The translations under genes were made by a program, and so were the position numbers. Below the pieces are notes generated by a model. That model was not told where the DNA came from. It worked only from the letters and a program-made list of their open reading frames with translations, and searched no databases. Of a DNA stretch of 64,000 nt, positions 31,340 to 63,434 are shown one piece after another. Position 1 is the first letter of the stretch. Every line of letters begins with the position of its first letter. The DNA comes from Spinacia oleracea (lineage: Eukaryota; Streptophyta; Magnoliopsida; Caryophyllales; Amaranthaceae), in NCBI RefSeq assembly GCF_020520425.1, contig NC_079487.1, positions 127,370,385 to 127,434,384 on the forward strand, given 5' to 3'.

Positions 31340-31714
31340 TAAAAAAAACTCGGTCACCATGTCCAAAATTCTTAATCCTAGTTGGCATAAACTTGACCCC
31401 GGTCCAAAGTTTTCCATGCGCCCAAATCCAAATGCCACCCAAAAATTTAAAATATACCAGCAAAGTAGCAAACACCATCAATCGGAGATCACACCAGAAA
31501 ACAAGAGGGAGATCGAGAGAGACTGAGCAGCGCGCAAATTAACGCCGTGGGAAGGAAGAAAACGCAGAGAGGCCGGCGTAAAAACTCTCTCGACTTTCCT
31601 CCTTCCCCATTTCTGAAACCCAACAAAATCCGTATTTTTTGTTCACTTTCGAATTGCCGTTACTGTGAAAATAGGGGGGAATTCCATGATTTTCCTAATT
31701 GATCATCTTTTTTG

Positions 31715-34700
31715 ATGCGCCGACCTAATGCCCAATCTCCAAAGCACAATTCCGAGCTAAAATCCGACCCAGATCCTCAAATGGAGCCACTTTCCATCAA
31801 ATCGTTCAATTTTAAGCAAAACCCTAGTTCTAGATCCAATTCCTTTTCTAGAACTCCCAAAAACCAACCCAAATCCATTTGGCTTACTGTTTTTCTCTTT
31901 TTTATTGCGTTTTTAATTGTTTTTTACTCATTGTTTGTCTTTTTCCGACATAAAACCCCGGTTAATGGCCGGAAATTTGGGATGATTATTGATGGAGGGA
32001 GTACTGGCTCACGCGTTCATGTATTTGAGTATAATGTTGAAGGTGGGGTGCCCAGGTTTGATTTCGGGCCGAATGGGCATTCCTCGATGAGAGTTAGTCC
32101 TGGTTTATCGTCATTTAAGGAGGTTCCCGATCGAGCTGGTGAGTCATTGGTGGAGCTGGTGGAATTTGGGAAGAGGATTGTGCCCAGGGAGTTCTGGGGA
32201 GATACTGAGGTTAGGTTAATGGCCACTGCTGGGCTTCGGTTGCTTGATTTGAACGTTCAGGATCGCATTCTGGAGTCTTGCCGGAGACTTATGAGGTCGT
32301 CAGGTTTGAAGTTTCGTGATGATTGGGCTTCGGTGATTACAGGTACAAGTTATGTGAGTTCATTTGAGTTGCCTTTATGATATTTGTTTTACTATTTTGC
32401 TCTTTGGTGGATTGGTTAGGATGGCTTGTTTTCTCAATTATGGTATCTATAATCTATATTCATTTCACTATACATATTGTGATTCTGTGAAGCATCTGTG
32501 GCAATTAGTCTCGGCCTCTTTTGGAGTTTTGAGAAGGGGGACAGGCGTGTAAAGGTAGGTTAGAGTACCACAGAGGCTAATGTGTTATCCTTGTCGGAGA
32601 TTCTTGTTAAGGGTGCTAGGGTGTGTCGTATGTGAGCGCAGGAAAAGGGCTGTGATAGAACTGATTTTCAAAAACAATATAGTAGTGGGAGTGTGAGAAT
32701 ATTGTAAAAAGGTATGAGAGAATATAGGATCAATTATATACAAGTATGAGAAAAGATATTGTCAGCTTCCCCTCCATCACACCCCAATTTGAGAGGCAAA
32801 GAAACACGAGGTTTGAGTTGGATTGGACCAGGTTCTGTTCATTGCAATATTTTTATCTCCTAAGTACTTGTTCCCAATCCAAATTGGAAGTTTAATGTGG
32901 GACAGATGGAGTAACTTTTTTGCTTACATGCCTCCTATTTGAAGAGGTTTGGGGGTTATTATGCTTAGAGCTGTCGAGCAGACATGAGGAATCACTCATT
33001 TGAGAGTGAATGAAAGTTATCTTTCATTTAATCATTTGGAGTATCTGGCTTTCCGTGAAGCTCAGATTCACAAAATTTCTCGCCTTACCCATGTATGACC
33101 AGGTACATATATGGGATATCTGTATGATTGGGGGAAGACATAGCAACTGACTGATATGACAATGCCAATGGGGAGAAAGAGAGGATGAATGGAGGTATCT
33201 GTCAGATTCAGTCATCCAGGCATGTTCTTCTATCTATGTTTGACTGATTGATTGCTATTAGAGCATCTTTAACGGTAAGCTAATTGTTAAATTAGCTTGT
33301 CATGCCACATAATATATCAAGCTATTTCCCTTTTTAGCTAGTTGGTACCCCAATGATTAGCTACTAGCTTGATGTTAATGTATTCATATTTGTCAATCAA
33401 TATTTTAAACATAATTTTATTTAATATTATTTCATTGGCTAATTTTTTTCAAGCAAATTAGCTTGTATAAGCTAATTTGCTTGGCCAAGCTAATTTATCA
33501 TTTGAACTCCAATGGTCAAGCTACTAGCTTGGAATTTCTAAAAATTACAAGCTAGTCCCTAGCTACAACCATTGGAGATGCTCTTACAGGTACTCCCTTC
33601 TCTGGCATTTTTCCTCTGTTGATTCAGCTCACGGTTATAGATAAGCTAATTATGCAGTGGACTATGTTTCTTCTCTAGGTCATCATGTCCAGACTCATCA
33701 AAATATTGAACCTCTTTTAGATAATAAAATTTCTTACTTCATATTTCTGCGGTTTAGATCAGTATGGGTTTGTTCTTGGGAGAAGACTTCCCTTATTTGC
33801 GTGTATTTTTCCTGTATATAAAAATCAACGAAAATTTTGGGCCTCCATCCATAGCCTGAAAGTAAAATTTACTTGGTTATAATTTTTTCTTCAGAATGAT
33901 GAGGCAGTTCAATTATTGTCATAAACAATCGTTAGTTTCTGCTCTTATCTGGTGATTAGGTTTTGTTTCCTTCCCCCCTCCCCCCTCTCTCAATTCTCTC
34001 CCTTTCCCTTCCACCCTCCCTTCCCCAACTCTCACTCTCTCCCTCCCCGTCCCTCCCTCCATTGCGCCCTTTTATTCTTATCTAAAATTCATTGATTTTT
34101 TTTAAAATTAAAGTAATTAGTTCAAGCATCAACAAGTTACATACTCTTACGCTTTTACTAGCTTGATACCTAATTTTCAATAATGCTTGACAAGAATGGC
34201 AGGCTTTTGACGGTTAGACTTCTGCCGCCTCTTGCAAGCCTATCTAGGACCCATATCACCATTAGATGTTAGTGTCTGGAACTCCGAACCCTCTCCCTCC
34301 TGACATAATGAGGCAATCCTCGATCCTGGGAAATATGAATTTTCAAGATTGGGAAACCAGACATACACAAAAAATTATATGAGACTATGCATTTCAACAT
34401 ATAGGAAAAATCATGTGAACTTCTTGTGTGTTGGGAGGTGAAGAAGCAGCTTTGTTTTCTTCTTTTGGAGTGTGGACGTGAATCGCGATTAAAGATCTCT
34501 GACAAGTTTCAGGCCCTAATAGACTTGTCAGACAAATTTAGGTTCAATTATTATACAGAGTAGAAATGAGACATCCGTGGACTTGCATTTCAATGACAAG
34601 TGTTCTGTTTGAAACTTTGAATGAATTGTTACGGCAAAGTTGACACACTGAAGCGCGAAGCTCTAGGGCAAAGCGCTTAATTAGGTCTGAGCGAAGCGTG

Positions 34701-43564: not shown

Positions 43565-44700
43565 TCAGAAGTTGGAGTAGTGTACGTCAGAGGTAGTAGC
43601 ATGATGTTCCATAGCTATCTCCAAAAGACAGTCACATAGCTTTTTTGGCATGCAGAACATGGGCATATGATCTGAGTGTTTAAGCTCCTTGACTTGTTCC
43701 ACCCCATTATTTTTAATCATCCATCGTTGGAATGCTGGTGGTATTGCTTCATCTTCGTCACACATGACATAAACTAGCCTCACTGATCCATATCCTTCCT
43801 TCGAAAGCTTAGTCTCCGGCCTCCACAAATCGTTAAGGAACAACGACGATGGCCTTCTCAATGTCAAAATTAACTCATAATCCTAATAACATTACCACAA
43901 AATAAGACTAAATTAACAACATATATTTTAATTATAACTTGAGCGTTTGAATAAGGTTACAAGTTACCTCAGGGGGAGACAACTTATAAATCTTAGATAA
44001 GAAGCATGGTCCGAACAAAAATGATGTAAGGCTCTCCTTTGGGTCGTCACCGTAGCTCTTGAATTCGGTGTCGACCCAATAATCTTCTCCTGGTGGCATA
44101 CTTGCAGTAAACTTGTCCAATATAAAGAGAATATAATTAACAAGTTTCTGTTAATTTTATGGTCCAATGAATATATATTATCGCCAATCTTAAAATTAAA
44201 TGCCACGTAATGCTTATAGATATACTCCGTAACACGTCTATATACGTACGTGACAAATAAAAAGTCAAAGATTATACGTTTATTAATTATTTAATTAAGA
44301 GGACATGCATATGGCAGTATGATACCTGGTCAAAAATAAAGGAGGGAGTGTGGTAAGAATCAGGCATAAAAGCAGTGAGGAAAACAGCAACATCAATTTT
44401 ATGAGGGAATATGTCCATAACCAAAGCTATGCTAAGCCCTCCAAGGCTATGCCCAACAAGAACAATTTTATCATCATCAGGAAGAGACTCCATTAATTGA
44501 ATCAATGGCTCAGTGTATTCGCCAAGAGTTTGGAGTTGAGAGATCTTCGTTAGGTTGATCCCGGCGGCCACCAAGTCAAGTACCGTTACACGGTGTCCGG
44601 CGAGCTCTAGTAGTGGTATAAGCTTGAACCAACACCATGCACCATGACATGCACCATGTACTAGTACAAAATGCTTCTTCATGTAACAGCTTTCTTCCAT
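43565..44700 (-). CDS. Methylesterase (MES/SABP2-like alpha/beta hydrolase)
   Basis: Three minus-strand exons (44326-44700, 43968-44111, 43565-43882) give 278 residues with clean GT-AG joins in phase 0; the start is the first ATG. Residues 11-24 carry the LVHGACHGAWCW oxyanion region. The nucleophile elbow GHSLGG puts Ser at 85. The acid is probably Asp217 in CDEDEAIP, aligned with the Asp of family CTEDKAIP. The catalytic His is 245 in HSDHMPMF, where the family usually has GADHMAM. The end PKKLCDCLLEIA is typical. The family hydrolyses methyl esters such as methyl salicylate, methyl jasmonate or methyl-IAA in the cytosol, and also includes polyneuridine aldehyde esterase-like enzymes; the substrate cannot be read from sequence. 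It is convergent with the apyrase gene. The length is slightly above the usual 260 because of a longer N terminus. Confidence 0.9.
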
Positions 44701-44785
44701 TACGTACCTCTCTATCTAGTTCTTTCTCTTCTTTTGGGTGTTGGAGAACTTAATTTAACATGCAGGTGTGCATGTTTGAATGCAT

Positions 44786-46606: not shown

Positions 46607-47698
46607 ATGAAGTCCTTTTACTTAATTTTGGTAGTACAATCTCTGTTTGTAGTCTCAGCATTTTCCCAAAGCTTTGATTTCTTTTACTTTGTTCAACAGG
46701 TATAGTACTGTGCCATAATTTTTAAGTTCTTTTGTTTTGTTTTGGTTGATTTTAATAAATATATATAGATTGAACAAGTTATATATATTTACTATATATT
46801 GAGGATGATTTTGCAGTGGCCTGGATCATACTGTGATACGAAGAAGAGTTGCTGCTTTCCCAGTTCAGGCAAACCAGATGCAGATTTCGGAATTCATGGA
46901 CTTTGGCCCAATTATAAGGATGGTTCCTACCCTAGTAACTGTGATCCTGACAGCCATTTTGATCAATCTCAGGTACGCTTTACGCTTTATTTGACACATT
47001 TTCCACTAACTATATTTTTTTAAAAAATAGTTATTGGGAAATAAACTTTAGTATTGAATTAAATTGAATTGCATTAAATTAAATTGAACTGAACTGAACT
47101 GAACTGAATGCTCCTGAACTGTCAGATAAATCCTAAATTGAACTGACGTTATTGTCTTAAAAACAGATATCAGGAGTGTTGAGGAGAATGCGAAGTGAAT
47201 GGCCAACATTGGCATGCCCAAGTAACGACGGAATACAATTTTGGGCTCATGAATGGGAAAAGCACGGGACTTGTTCTGCCCTTGACCAACATGCTTACTT
47301 CCAGACTACTCTTGACCTCAAAAATCAAGTCAATCTTCTCCAGTCACTCACAAGTGCAGGTAATTATTACTCTTTTTTTATTATTAGTTTCGGCTTTTGT
47401 TTGAGGACAAAGGGAGTACTTTTTCTTATGTCGCGTGTAATTAATAACGTTTTTGTTTTTTTCTTGTGACGTAGGAATTGAGCCAAACGGTAATACATAC
47501 TCCTTAGAAAGCATAAAAGACGCCATCAAGCAGGATGTCGGATACACACCTTTTGTGGAGTGCAACAATGATTCATCTGGGAATAGTCAACTTTACCAAA
47601 TTTATCATTGTGTTGATAATTCTGCGTCTAAACTTATCGAGTGTCCTGTTTTTCCTCGTGGCAGATGTGGTTCTCAAATTGAATTTCCTACATTTTGA
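46607..47698 (+). CDS. S-like RNase T2, gene A of a tandem trio
   Basis: Four exons (46607-46699, 46817-46972, 47167-47359, 47475-47698) give 221 residues. Residues 1-20 are a signal peptide (FYLILVVQSLFVVSAFS); the mature part begins near [15 protein letters not shown]. Catalytic site I is [10 protein letters not shown] with His58. Site II is FWAHEWEKHGTCS with His111, Glu112, Lys115 and His116. Conserved cysteines are present, including CC after the first exon and the C-terminal CP..PRG.CGS. The family cleaves single-stranded RNA through a 2',3'-cyclic phosphate in the apoplast, vacuole or ER; many S-like members respond to phosphate starvation, wounding or ageing. Intron 3 (phase 1, after the LTSAG codons) is absent from genes B and C. 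Intron 2 holds a short TGAAC run. Self-incompatibility function is not implied. Confidence 0.93.
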
Positions 47699-49221: not shown

Positions 49222-50585
49222 ATGGGGAAAGTGTCAATAATGATGATGGTTTTAGTTGTTTTATGTTTAGTTGGGGATGTTTTATGTAAGTCCAAAAAAC
49301 CGCACAAGTCTACAAGTACTGAATTTGATTTTTTCTACTTCGTGCAGCAGGTACTTTTCAATTTCCTATCCCGTATCAGGATCCTTTCCATTTATTTTCA
49401 TGTTTTATTTTAAAGGGACTAATAATATATGTTTGAATGCGCGTAGTGGCCAGGAGCATATTGTGATGCAAAAGGGAGGAAATGTTGTTTCCCAGGTAGC
49501 GGGAAGCCAACAACAGATTTCTCAATCCATGGACTTTGGCCTAATTACAACGATGGTAGTTACCCATCCAATTGTGATAGTAGTAACCCTTTTGATGAAT
49601 CTCAGGTATACTACGATCTTAATTCTACGATATAATAAACCATTTCTTTCTATTAATTATTCGGAGTTTTTGTCAAAAATGACTTGAATGTTTGCACAAT
49701 TTTGCTTCCCTCTGAAGATAACATGAATCATACAACTAAATTATCGGTTAATTAGTAATTAAAGCTTTCTTGGGTGTCAATCAATTGCCAACTACACCGG
49801 TGTACAACTTTTCGTGACTCGTATATTACATAGCTACGTAGTACGTACTATAATTATGAAATGAAGACATTTTAATTTGTAATTATTTCATTTTATAGAC
49901 ATTAGGGCTCATTGGGTATCAAAGCTAGTTTCCATTGTTTGGTTTTTTGGTTTTGAAAGTCATATGATTTAAATTGAATCATAAACCAACAAATAGTCAT
50001 ATCTATAGTAATCATGATGATTTCATAAACAGACAAAAACAAAAATAGAAACTACATTTTGTGATTTTTCATATTTTGGATTTTAATTGCGTAAAAAAAC
50101 AAAAAAAAAAAATTTATATTTTTGTACAACTATTGAAGCATTAATTCTAGAACTATTGGAATATGCAGATAGACGAGTTGGAGAGCAAGCTAGAAACAGA
50201 TTGGCCATCACTAGCATGCCCAAACGTAGGACCCAAGTTTTGGGCACATGAGTGGAACAAACATGGGACTTGTTCATCCTTTTCAAGCCAACAAGAGTAC
50301 TTCCAAGCAGGACTAGACCTCAAAGAAAAAACTAACCTTCTTCAAGCCCTCAAGGATGCCAACATTGAGCCTAACGACGAGTTCTATAACGTCGAGGACA
50401 TGAAGGAAGCCATGAAGGAGAAGATCGGATTCTATCCATGGATTGAATGCAACCGTGATTCCGAAGGAAATAGCCAGCTTTACCAGGTCTATATTTGTGT
50501 ACATGCTAATGGTAAGGACCTTATCAAATGTCCCGTGCTTCCTCGTGGAAATTGTGCTTCTAGAGTACAATTTCCTAAATTTTAA
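49222..50585 (+). CDS. S-like RNase T2, gene B of a tandem trio
   Basis: Three exons (49222-49350, 49447-49605, 50169-50585) give 234 residues. The signal peptide is about residues 1-22 ([16 protein letters not shown]), then a lysine-rich stretch (KSKKPHKST) not found in A or C. Site I is [10 protein letters not shown] with His71. Site II is [13 protein letters not shown] with His123, Glu124, Lys127 and His128. The C-terminal [18 protein letters not shown] matches gene A. Introns 1 and 2 are at the same places and phases as in A and C; the third intron of A is missing. All expected catalytic residues are present, so it should be active. By family it is secreted or vacuolar. The middle region ([19 protein letters not shown]) is more acidic than in C. 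Confidence 0.93.
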
Positions 50586-58398: not shown

Positions 58399-61300
58399 AT
58401 GGGGAAATGGGGAAGTTCTCTGTTAATCAAGTTTAGTGTTATCCTAAGTTTATCTGTTGTAGCTCTCGCTAACAATGGCAATAATTTCCACTTGTTCTAC
58501 TTTGTGCAACAGGTATTTTTATTTTGTTTACTTGCTCTTTATTTTGTCCGGATTTGGTTGTCACGTTATTAAAATGTGAATGTACTGTATGTTAGTAATT
58601 ACTCGTAGTAGTATTAATCATAAAATTGGTGTTGGTGGTGTTGCAGTGGCTAGGATCATACTGTGATCAAAACGGGGAAAGATGTTGTTACCCACCAACT
58701 GGAAAACCAGGACCAGAGTTTTCAATTTATGGGCTTTGGCCTTACTTTAATGATGGTAGCTTCCCCTACAATTGCGGCAGCGACAACTTTGATGAAGCTC
58801 TGGTATTTTTCTCCTTCTACTCTTCTTCATCTCTTCTTTTTTTAGCTCTGTTTTCCCTTTATTTTTCTTCAAGGTTTTGATATAGATTATAAACTCCGCA
58901 ATTAATTATTGGATACTTGTTTAGCTTTTAGAAACTTTAACAGAGATTATATACCTAATTATTGTTTTTGATGAAACTTTATCAGAGATTATGTACCTAA
59001 TTATTGTTTTTGATGAAACTTTAACAGAGATTATGTACCTAATTTAAGTTCATGATTTTGTACATTGTCATATGGAGTAACTCATCAGTCCGAAAAAGTT
59101 GATAAAGGTTTTTAGAGTTTATTCTTTTCACCTTAGGTACGGATTTATTTATTGACTCTTATCTAAACAGATCCGAGTTTATGAACTTATTTGAACTAAT
59201 CGAAACTATTAGTTAGTTGTGTTAGATTAATGGAAACTTCTCTAAACAATTATACGGAGTAGTGAAATACGAGGTACGGACTATAGAGTACTCAACTTGG
59301 CTTAAAGAATAGTGCCAAAGACAAGACCATGTTCAACGCTCTAGGTTGGACAATGGACACACCTTGACCCACAGTCCGATTCTCGTGGGACAAGAGTCAA
59401 GACTTTTCAAATATTTTGGAATTTCTGGATCTGAAATTATTCTTTTTAAGAAATTATCGATATTATTATGAATTGTACTCCCTCCGTATTTTTTTAAGAG
59501 ATACACTTGACCGGGCACGGGTATTAAAAAGAATAATTGAATGAAATAAAATAATAAAACAAGTGGGGTTGGATAGATATTTTAATAATTAAACATGTGG
59601 GGACCATGTCATTTTGGTGGGTGGAGGGTGGGGTGGGTTTATGAAATTATTTGTTTAATAGGATGGTGGGTGATAGAGTAAATTAGATGTATTATTTAAT
59701 TAGATAGTGGGTTGATAAGTTACTAAAAATGGCAAGTGTATCTCTTAAATAAATACGGCCGGAAAAGGCAAGTGTATCCCTTAAATAAATACGGAGAGAG
59801 TAACAACAGTCAACACTAATCGAACTTAAACTACTATTTCCGTTCTTAAATATTAGTCTGTTTTGACTTTTCAACTCGTTTTAATTCAATATTTAAACAT
59901 AAATATCTCCAAATACATATGTAAGAAAAATATAAAAATTTGATATTGTTAAACTACACATTAAGACGAACAAAATAAGATCTCATGAATATGTTTTGGA
60001 AGTACGTATAGTAAAGAAATTAGAAGATACTCTTCAATTGTGAATAGTGTCAAAATTCCAAATGAGACTAATATTCGAGAACTGAGAGAGTATACCTTTT
60101 ATTTTATAATGAACTTAAAGTATACTTGATTCCATGCAGTAACATTACTAATCTGGTGTTTAGTTATATCACATGTACAATAAATATTGTATTTGAAGTA
60201 AAAGTTAACTCAAAATATTTAAAAAGTTACCTTTGTATAAGAAAAAGTTTAGTTACCTTTGTATAAGAAAAAGTTATCTATTTTTTACGGATAAATTTTT
60301 TCATTTTAATAGACATTATTTCTTCAAAATCATGAATAATGTATAAAATTAATCATTTAACACTTTAAAATGTTTATCTATCAATTTTTTTTATAATATA
60401 AAAGTTAATCAAAACCTATTTAAAGTTACATAAAACTAGGGGTAAAAGTTATAAAAAAAACTGGATAAAAATTATCTTGGTGTACAATAAATTTATTGTA
60501 CATCTTATGCGCGCAAGACCCTTTGTAATTATATTGCAAATAATATGAAATGTTTTTATGTCAGATCACAATTTTGTTCTAACCTATATATTTGGAGAAA
60601 GCGACTTCCCAATTAGAGTATTAGACCTTGCAAAATTGACCTGCATAGCCATAAGGCCCATAAGGCCGTGTCCGACTATTCTATCCAAATCTAAATTGTA
60701 CTGAAACTTATGGAGACTCGATTTTAAAGCTAACCATTTTGATAAAAGCCCAAGTGCTAAATTTTTTATTTAATTTTGATAAAAGCCCAAAGCCCAATTT
60801 TATTTTATTGTAACTAAAAAGTTTATAGACACGAAAAAAACAAGATCATCTTCATTCAAACCAGATAAAAGCCCAATAGCCCAATTATTTTGGGTCCATT
60901 TGATACGTATATCTGGGTTAGTCAGTTACTCCCTCCGTCCCGGAATACTTGACCTGTTTTCCTTATCGGGTCGTCCCTTAATACTTGACCTGTTTCTAAA
61001 AATGAAAATATTCTAACAATATTATATTATTTCTCACTCCACCCCTATTAACCCACCTACCCCTACTCCATACAAAAAATAATTAAAAATTCAACCATAC
61101 TCTCCCCCAACCCCACCCCTTTACACATTTCCCACTAACTACATTAAAATAATACCCCACTATCAACTACTACCTATTAAATTAAATAAGTCAATTCAAA
61201 TCCCTTAAACTCTGTGCCGGTCAAACTGGGTCGAGTATTCCGGGACGGAGGGAGTATGTTATTTTGATTGCTAACTAAGTTTTAAATTTTGCAGCTTAAA

Positions 61301-61720
61301 CCCATGCAAGACAGTTTGAGGAAGGAGTGGCCATCATTCACATGCCCACAAATTGGTAGAAAATTCTGGGTCCATGAATGGAACAAGCATGGAACATGCT
61401 CCAAATCAGTCCTGGGTGAAGTCGCTTACTTCAAGGCCGCTTTAGCTCTCAAGAACAGGGTCAATATCCTTGGAGCCCTTACAAGTGCTGGAATTCGACC
61501 AAACAACCAGTTATACTCTCTTAAGTCCGTTAAACAGGCAATTGCTAGGGGTACTGGTTTTCACCCTTGGGTTGTCTGTAACCGTAATTCTCAAGGTACT
61601 AGCCAGATTTGGCAGGTTGCTATGTGTGTCGATAGAACTGGCACCCGACTCATTAACTGCCCTTTCGTTCCCAAAGGACAGGGTGATTGTGAGTCCAGAA
61701 TCAAGTTTCCTTCTTACTAA
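58399..61720 (+). CDS. RNase T2-like protein, gene C of the trio, first catalytic His replaced
   Basis: Three exons (58399-58512, 58647-58802, 61295-61720) give 231 residues. The signal peptide is about residues 1-24 (LLIKFSVILSLSVVALA). The fold-defining residues are kept: FYFVQQW, CC after intron 1, and site [15 protein letters not shown] with His117, Glu118, Lys121 and His122. Site I, however, reads FSIYGLWPYF: residue 66 is Tyr (codon TAT at 58727-58729) where genes A and B have His. In the family this His acts in the acid-base pair, and its loss is known to go with loss of activity in RNase-related storage-type proteins. No stop or frameshift is seen, so the gene may encode an expressed pseudoenzyme. 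The C-terminal half is more basic than in A and B. Intron 2 is 2.5 kb and filled with MITEs. Introns match B. Confidence 0.9.
58931..59045 (+). repeat. 42-bp tandem repeat in RNase gene C intron 2
   Basis: Units at 58931-58972 and 58973-59014 and a partial third to 59045 share GAAACTTTA(A/T)CAGAGATTAT; differences are few. Confidence 0.85.
59478..59810. mobile_element. Stowaway-like MITE in gene C intron 2, with duplicated right end
   Basis: Left end CTCCCTCCGTATTTTTTTAA, right end TTAAATAAATACGGAGAGAG, TA on each side (59476-59477, 59811-59812). The last about 35 bases (GGCAAGTGTATC.CTTAAAT) are repeated just inside, so the right terminus is present twice. Confidence 0.78.
59834..60090. mobile_element. 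Stowaway-like MITE in gene C intron 2, second family
   Basis: Left end CTATTTCCGTTCTTAAATATT, then AGTCTGTTTTGAC; right end GAGACTAATATTCGAGAACT then GAGAGAG. TA on both sides. 257 bp. Confidence 0.65.
60165..60525. repeat. AT-rich element bordered by TGTACAATAAAT words
   Basis: The left side has ATGTACAATAAATATTGTA (from about 60174). At the right, 60481-60502 is a perfect 22-base palindrome built on TGTACAATAAA and its complement. A short direct doublet (AGTTACCTTTGTATAAG) lies at about 60226-60275. Ends are not defined and the family is unknown. Confidence 0.45.
60929..61254. mobile_element. Stowaway-like MITE in gene C intron 2, third family
   Basis: Left end CTCCCTCCGTCCCGGAATAC, right end TATTCCGGGACGGAGGGAG; TA on each side (60927-60928, 61255-61256). 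The termini are nearly perfect over about 22 bases, so this is a young insertion. It ends 40 bases before the exon 3 acceptor. Confidence 0.88.
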
Positions 61721-62789: not shown

Positions 62790-62906
62790 TCATTTCTTTC
62801 TCTCCTCAAATACTTATATTCTTCCTCACACCACTTCACAATTTCCAATCAAAATTAGAAAACACAAAGGAATTCTCAAAAGAAAAACAGGTGAATATCC
62901 AAACCA

Positions 62907-63051
62907 ATGGAAGATAAACAACCCCCCACAATGCAAATTCAAGTTAAAGTTGAAGAAACTCATCAAATACCCACCTCGTTGAGTCAAGAAAAAACCAGGT
63001 TTGACGCGCCCGGAAACGACGATCATCATCAACTACAACCGCAACAACAGC

Positions 63052-63110
<59 letters not shown>

Positions 63111-63434
63111 AAGCGGCCAAATGAGAGCAATAGTGAAGAACAGAAGAAACCAATAGTTGATCAAGAAAAGATGGAGAAAAGGAGTAATAGTAATAATAAT
63201 AATGTAGGAATATTGGGTCCAAGAGAGAGAATGAAGAGGCATAGAAGAGAGGTAGCAGGGAATGTTTGGATACCAGAAATGTGGGGCCAAGAAAATTTTC
63301 TCAAAGATTGGACTGATTGTTCAGCGTTCGATGCTTCTTTGGTGCATCAAAATATAATGCTAGCTCGAGCTTCTTTAATGGAGGAGAGAAGAAGATCTAA
63401 TTCCACTACTCTCACTGTAGAAAATAGCTGTTAG
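62907..63434 (+). CDS. BIC1: BIC-type blue-light inhibitor of cryptochromes, with polyglutamine tract
   Basis: Intronless frame of 175 residues; the first ATG is used. Residues 104-150 hold the conserved cryptochrome-interacting region: [31 protein letters not shown] and CSAFDASLV, as in Arabidopsis BIC1/BIC2 (family pattern GRERLKRHR..VAG.VWIP..WGQE.LLKDW.DC..FD). BIC proteins bind photoactivated CRY2 in the nucleus, block its dimerisation and so damp blue-light responses; their transcription is light-induced. The N-terminal half is low complexity, with 23 consecutive glutamines at residues 46-68 and an NNNN run near 96-99. The rest (residues 69-100) is charged and probably disordered. BIC1 rather than BIC2 is a guess; both share the region. 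The polyQ tract is unusual for the family as I know it. Confidence 0.9.
63042..63110 (+). repeat. CAA/CAG microsatellite coding for polyglutamine
   Basis: Twenty-three in-frame glutamine codons, nearly all CAA, inside the BIC gene. Long valine/leucine-like frames on the other strand are its shadow. The tract is likely length-polymorphic. Confidence 0.9.

Follow-up and report, generated by a model that had tools for sequence, protein, structure and literature searches.

Inactive relatives of RNase T2 recur in plants. Ramanauskas and Igic (2017) inferred 67 class I sequences, in nine clades, to be non-functional, and of nine shifts towards a basic isoelectric point (pI) within class I, seven coincide with loss of the active histidine (PMC5598434). 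The sections of that paper available to us describe the His-less genes of grasses as a class I clade, as well as a class I clade of the Caryophyllales whose 14 sequences lack the conserved histidines, whose expression and function are virtually uncharacterised and which perhaps signals a functional shift rather than a group of pseudogenes. In rice, the T2 relatives OsRNS4 (AK061438), which is induced under zinc deficiency, and AK109411 were inferred to be inactive, both histidines being replaced in each (Lys66/Tyr125 and Ala67/Ser125, respectively; PMC5520845); we would link these two proteins to the grass clade. The inactive CalsepRRP of Calystegia (PDB 1jy5) keeps the fold with Lys in place of the first catalytic histidine and is assigned to class II (PMC5598434). 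Here we analyse a stretch of 64,000 nucleotides from spinach, Spinacia oleracea (hereafter the window; contig NC_079487.1, positions 127,370,385 to 127,434,384, a window position being the C1 position minus 127370384), which holds the first three genes of a tandem array of nine RNase T2 genes, A to I, and in which the third, gene C, carries Tyr at the site of the first catalytic histidine.

Amongst the 18 PDB sequences matched by gene C, RNases NW, LE and NGR3 are the closest and score far above MC1, CalsepRRP and the S-RNases. RNases NW (1iyb) and LE (1dix), which we take to be class I S-like RNases, match 204 and 206 residues of gene C (E 6e-66 and 2e-64) and share its cysteine columns in the alignment; in contrast to genes C to I, all seven of which lack the histidine and have Tyr at position 39, they bear the first histidine, and their position 39 is Asn (active-site numbering follows RNase MC1 throughout). 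Like CalsepRRP and the two rice proteins, gene C lacks the first histidine, but the rice proteins have lost both whereas gene C has lost only the first, and the similarity to CalsepRRP is far lower (E 1.9e-22), with YEWAKHG facing HEWNKHG of gene C in the second conserved active-site segment (CAS II). A close relation to CalsepRRP, a class II protein with Lys in CAS I, is not indicated, as gene C has Tyr there and NW, LE and NGR3 as its best matches. The initial annotation of the window had set gene C beside storage-type proteins that have lost this histidine; the likeness in the lost residue stands, while the analogy as such is loose, CalsepRRP being a class II protein with Lys at the first histidine and Tyr at His83 of CAS II. 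Loss of the histidine and storage do not correspond one-to-one, since a ginseng storage protein is said to be inactive yet His-bearing (PMC5598434).

With the His-less Caryophyllales clade (PMC5598434), gene C shares the class, the plant order, the absence of the catalytic histidine and a basic pI, and its membership of that clade, like that of its sisters, is very probable. The kind, His-less class I relatives, is already known; the spinach array is described here in greater detail. The tandem arrangement, the Tyr substitute, the otherwise intact site and a ratio of nonsynonymous to synonymous substitution rates (dN/dS) equal to that of His-bearing neighbours are absent from the account in the available sections of PMC5598434, and Spinacia, Beta vulgaris, Amaranth, Chenopod and beet are not among the words of its main text as available. 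No publication on the spinach RNase T2 array was found among the matches listed in literature searches, and a motif search of the literature found IHGLWP in two papers and did not find IYGLWP.

Gene C is an intact RNase T2 gene without the first catalytic histidine

Gene C is an intact gene of the class I type (Table 1). Its three exons join in frame across GT-AG borders and encode an open frame of 231 residues, the hydrophobic N-terminus of which reads, judged by eye, as a signal peptide, and the mature protein contains ten cysteines, the same count as in all nine genes of the array. The PF00445 (RNase T2) profile matches it with 170.7 bits (cut-off 26) over its entire length (1-188 of 188). 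Judged by its sequence, gene C is a member of the RNase T2 family by descent: CAS II presents the His, Glu, Lys and His expected of the family (HEWNKHG), and CAS I has Tyr at the place of its catalytic histidine. A structure prediction for the protein, computed from three sequences, was poor (mean predicted local distance difference test score, pLDDT, 51.6) and is the basis of no structural claim.

The initial annotation had read FSIYGLWP in gene C as a His-to-Tyr change relative to genes A and B, in a gene with intact frame and cysteines. This reading is borne out: the motif is encoded by the exon starting at 58647, and the codon is TAT where the equivalent codon of genes A and B is CAT. Two of its coordinates needed correction, as the gene extent of 58647-61720 is too short, exon 1 having been omitted, and the Tyr codon, placed at 58727-58729, was one base off.

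The second intron of gene C is the longest in the nine gene models and contains three inverted-repeat elements, one of them weaker (Table 1). The clearest has the ends TACTCCCTCCGT...ACGGAGGGAGTA, and the elements resemble miniature inverted-repeat transposable elements (MITEs) of the Stowaway type. Their presence partly accounts for the intron's length of 2.5 kb. Close to its 5' end a 42-base unit is repeated three times, head-to-tail.

Seven of nine tandem RNase T2 genes lack the histidine

Searching the whole spinach genome (894,210,420 bases in 242 sequences) with the PF00445 profile yielded 27 matches, of which 19 represent the exons of nine genes at C1:127.417-127.474 Mb and eight lie elsewhere. 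The nine genes occupy 56,694 bases on one strand (C1:127416991-127473684, that is, from window position 46607 onward), with A, B and C inside the window and D to I beyond its right edge, and every one of the nine models has an open frame and canonical GT-AG splice sites. Gene A has three introns and genes B to I have two, namely the first two of these; with positions matched by order only, these layouts fit the class I patterns I-D and I-C (PMC5598434).

The codon for the first catalytic histidine is CAT in A and B, TAT in C, D, E, G and I, TAC in H and GAT in F, so that the residue is absent from seven of the nine genes, replaced by Tyr in six and by Asp in F. As five further paralogues also have Tyr at this codon, neither chance nor a base error is a credible source of the Tyr in gene C. 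Where the initial annotation had seen a single changed paralogue in a trio of RNase genes, the trio makes up the first third of the array and the change marks seven of its nine members. Its description of a tandem set of active and inactive paralogues stands insofar as A and B possess all catalytic residues checked and C to I lack one, activity itself being only predicted.

Used as genome queries, exon 2 of gene C gave at least nine matches, all nine in the array, and exon 3 at least 12, ten of them in the array and two weak ones elsewhere (E 3e-5 and 1e-3); as all but these two fall in the array, no dispersed close copy was seen. Amongst the eight T2-like loci outside the array, the CAS I residue is His in four (L016-L019), a pattern search did not find the CAS I motif in three (L020-L022), and in the last (L023) the frame gives Asp ahead of GLWP, beside a possible exon border. 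Within the array, genes E and F share the locus label L012 and gene I is L015. A pattern scan of prokaryote genome contigs returned 120 matches, none of which was confirmed as a relative.

The loss of the histidine is probably old

In a protein tree of the array genes together with RNases LE, NW, NGR3 and MC1, genes C to I form one clade with support of 100/99 (Shimodaira-Hasegawa-like approximate likelihood ratio test, SH-aLRT, and ultrafast bootstrap, respectively). The position of gene C as the earliest branch of this clade is weakly supported (58/55 at the node uniting the other six), and the placement of B relative to A is not settled (74/73). Pairwise synonymous divergence (dS), computed with the NG86 method and saturated and undefined in six of 36 pairs, all of which combine A or B with a gene of the clade and yielded no ratio, amounts to 1.22-1.45 between gene C and its six sisters and to 0.72-1.68 inside the His-less clade. 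Because the seven His-less genes form one clade, the loss most simply predates their duplications, and because of the dS values these duplications are old and the loss is most simply older still. A recent single mutation in gene C was rejected in view of its dS to the six sisters.

The His-less genes are under purifying selection

Selection was analysed with a codon likelihood program written for this work, whose one-ratio likelihood matches that of IQ-TREE (-4327.81 in both). Over the whole array tree dN/dS is 0.242, absolute values here and below being rough because dS is near or above 1. A three-ratio model assigns 0.245 to A and B, 0.263 to the stem and 0.239 to the His-less clade and does not improve on one ratio (P = 0.97); purifying selection on the His-less clade equals that on its His-bearing neighbours. 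On the gene C branch dN/dS is 0.158, which rejects neutrality (dN/dS = 1) at P = 2.4e-5; on two alternative topologies the branch gives 0.200, with neutrality again rejected (P = 1.3e-6 and 2.1e-6). The same holds for all nine terminal branches (P from 1.4e-9 to 0.026), the weakest rejections being those of G (0.410, P = 0.013) and B (0.294, P = 0.026), while the branches of F and I give 0.239 and 0.152. Site models applied to the seven clade sequences found no positive selection (M2a versus M1a and M8 versus M7, P = 1.0 each), and an arms race within the clade was rejected on these grounds.

Such a pattern is not that of a neutral pseudogene. The initial annotation had argued for retention of gene C rather than decay and had proposed dN/dS beforehand as the check, and it is retention that the estimates favour. 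That the Tyr reflects a sequencing or assembly error, or a pseudogene in decay, has a negligible chance of being correct, with no finding in its favour and given Tyr at the identical codon in six paralogues, intact frames and splice sites in all nine genes and the rejection of dN/dS = 1.

Most of the active site is retained and the charge is shifted

Roles of active-site residues were taken from docking work on RNase MC1, for which two catalytic residues are named, the first histidine among them (PMC9266746). His34 is lost in all seven clade genes, and Gln9, Trp37, Phe80, His83, Lys87 and His88 are kept in all seven; Glu84 is kept in six and is Leu in gene I (HLWNKHG), and gene E has Tyr for the Trp of CAS II (HEYNKHG). 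At the MC1 base contacts Thr43, Ser44, Asn71, Val72 and Leu73 the class I enzymes mostly depart from MC1 as well, and for this reason these positions say little about the clade. The Asn that Tyr39 replaces throughout the clade is present in five His-bearing class I sequences. Ten columns, not all of them within the catalytic motifs, hold a residue that is invariant throughout the clade and found in none of these five sequences, amongst them the basic Lys63, Arg83 and Lys98 (numbering of mature gene C). The five His-bearing sequences agree with one another in 86 columns, and the clade retains 54 of these unaltered.

The pI was computed on mature proteins, with cleavage assumed three residues ahead of the conserved FYF/FYL. 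It is 4.97 for A and 4.91 for B, compared with 9.01 for C, 8.99 for D, 4.96 for E, 8.98 for F, 8.63 for G, 9.73 for H and 9.45 for I, so that six of the seven His-less proteins are basic and E alone is acidic. Asn and Gln together make up 9.3-15.3% of the clade proteins and 12.0-12.1% of the His-bearing ones; with 11.4% in C, similar to A (12.1%) and B (12.0%), an Asn/Gln-rich storage composition was rejected.

Possible roles of the His-less proteins

The reading we tentatively prefer, and which we hold to be plausible though somewhat short of probable, is that gene C encodes a secreted, cationic, RNA-binding pseudo-RNase. The protein would be secreted and would retain the T2 fold and the nucleotide cleft; with one of the two acid/base histidines missing it would cleave RNA inefficiently, and it would act instead as a cationic protein, stabilised by disulfides, that binds RNA or nucleotides, for example by competing with paralogues A and B for substrate or by holding RNA outside the cell or in the vacuole. 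Binding is suggested by the cleft residues still in place, by the basic charge and by the behaviour of Arabidopsis RNS1 with both catalytic histidines changed: this protein is inactive, its overexpression in nahG plants gave a conductivity below that of the empty-vector control, and the authors favour a likely competitive exclusion of native RNS1 (PMC9545236), with which the dead protein thus probably interferes. Several observations weigh against this preference. Tyr39, two residues away from Trp37, could impede base binding rather than aid it. Retention of six of the eight active-site residues is no excess over other strongly conserved columns (hypergeometric P = 0.37, or 0.21 excluding Cys, Gly and Pro), and P = 0.023 is obtained only for six residues picked post hoc; the retention is real, yet it is weak evidence that the cleft is used. 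The clade can do without a basic charge, as the acidic protein of gene E demonstrates, and the Asn and Gln content fails to separate the clade from the His-bearing genes, which leaves room for storage.

Storage is the main rival, and we consider it unlikely, if clearly worth keeping in view: gene C would encode a vegetative or stress-accumulated protein, a stable secreted or vacuolar nitrogen reserve in which nuclease activity was unwanted and the histidine was lost. CalsepRRP, with its Lys at the first histidine site, has been proposed as a vegetative storage protein, rice OsRNS4 showed the top induction ratio in zinc-deficient roots and a possible storage role is discussed for it (PMC5520845), and ten cysteines would fit a stable protein. 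Set against this, the Asn and Gln content of C resembles that of A and B, a shift to basic pI would be unnecessary, and storage alone does not explain why His83, Lys87 and His88 are retained in seven of seven genes, whereas the two rice proteins lost both histidines named essential (PMC5520845) and CalsepRRP has Tyr for His83 as well. A role independent of the cleft, in which the protein would engage other proteins or serve as a cationic antimicrobial or a receptor ligand, appears improbable; the basic charge of six of the seven proteins and those clade-fixed columns that lie outside the catalytic motifs would suit it, but no partner is known and the site models lack the positive selection that a pathogen-facing role might show.

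The site might also have kept some catalysis, with Tyr34 acting as proton donor or stabiliser alongside His88 and Lys87 in a weak or specialised RNase. Every other catalytic residue is present in gene C, the same substitute, Tyr, occurs in six of the seven clade genes, and in a fish RNase T2 the change of another active-site histidine to Tyr reportedly went with a lower specific activity, related changes being expected to lower rather than eliminate it (PMC2720953). However, the first histidine belongs to the catalytic pair named for MC1 (PMC9266746), RNS1 with both histidines changed is inactive (PMC9545236), and the branches of gene F, with Asp at this site, and gene I, without Glu84, nevertheless evolve under purifying selection; we rate such catalysis as distinctly improbable. 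More doubtful still is a new RNA-processing or RNA-holding activity built on a rewired site, with Tyr34, His88 and Lys87 in six of seven genes and a pocket altered by Asn39Tyr in all seven. The Tyr-His-Lys set would presumably resemble that of tRNA-splicing endonucleases, and if this were true the array would be an old digestive RNase turned into a family of secreted RNA-handling proteins. That gene C is a self-incompatibility S-RNase or the remnant of one has practically no chance of being right: it is basic and has two introns, but amongst the PDB sequences matched its best solved relatives are NW, LE and NGR3 (E 6e-66 to 3e-64), S3- and SF11-RNase match it only at E 9e-20 and 3e-13, and its catalytic histidine is lost. 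Compared with all of these, the secreted RNA-binding pseudo-RNase accounts for gene C in the way we find most plausible.

Features of the window and the leaf-width interval

Table 1. Array genes and other features of the window (window coordinates)
Feature	Position	Strand	Description
Gene A, His-bearing RNase T2	46607..47698	+	exons 46607-46699, 46817-46972, 47167-47359, 47475-47698
Gene B, His-bearing RNase T2	49222..50585	+	exons 49222-49350, 49447-49605, 50169-50585
Gene C	58399-61720	+	introns of 134 and 2,492 bases
Gene C exon 1	58399..58512	+	start codon, hydrophobic N-terminus, ends in FYFVQQ
Gene C exon 2	58647..58802	+	CAS I region, FSIYGLWPY
Tyr codon TAT	58728..58730	+	site of first catalytic His (His34 of RNase MC1)
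Gene C intron 2	58803..61294	+	2,492 bases, MITE-like inverted repeats inside
Gene C exon 3	61295..61720	+	intact, includes stop codon
42-base unit, three copies	58931-59056		head-to-tail, in gene C intron 2
Inverted-repeat element	59476-59802		in gene C intron 2
Inverted-repeat element, weaker	59832-60092		in gene C intron 2
Inverted-repeat element	60927-61256		in gene C intron 2
Open frame, apyrase-like	31703-32380		GDA1_CD39 match
Open frame	44287-44715	-	alpha/beta hydrolase match
Open frame	62895-63434		downstream of gene C, BIC2 match

Three further open frames of the window match known families. Downstream of gene C, a frame with a long glutamine run matches BIC2, a cryptochrome inhibitor, at its C-terminal part (PDB 6k8k, E 2e-15). 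Ahead of the array, an apyrase-like frame matches the GDA1_CD39 nucleoside phosphatases (102 bits), and another matches alpha/beta hydrolase families (PF00561, 56.5 bits).

A quantitative trait locus (QTL) for leaf width in spinach was mapped to chromosome 1 at 41.470-42.045 Mb of an older assembly, an interval of 44 genes that is enriched for the ribonuclease T2 annotation and contains a gene annotated as cell-wall-loosening at 41.75 Mb as well as NAC genes at 42.02 and 42.03 Mb; the authors' own candidates are the genes of these two kinds (PMC8223354). On the 3' side of the array lie an expansin at C1:127.675 Mb and then a NAC gene at C1:127.847 Mb, with at least one NAC gene at that place amongst the 150 of 208 candidates scored. 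As expansin and NAC gene follow the array in matching order, the RNase T2 array probably lies within the leaf-width interval; nothing supports a relevance of the RNase genes themselves to leaf width.

Significance

In a single crop genome the array sets two paralogues with every catalytic residue checked next to seven that lack the histidine, and their relative age, selection and charge shift have been measured. This arrangement would ease removal of the His-less block as well as biochemistry on neighbours that differ at one catalytic residue. The Gene Ontology (GO) term 'ribonuclease T2 activity', as used in the leaf-width QTL enrichment, may be counting mostly proteins that are unlikely to cleave RNA, and the seven His-less genes, conserved by selection, probably do a different job from RNA cutting.

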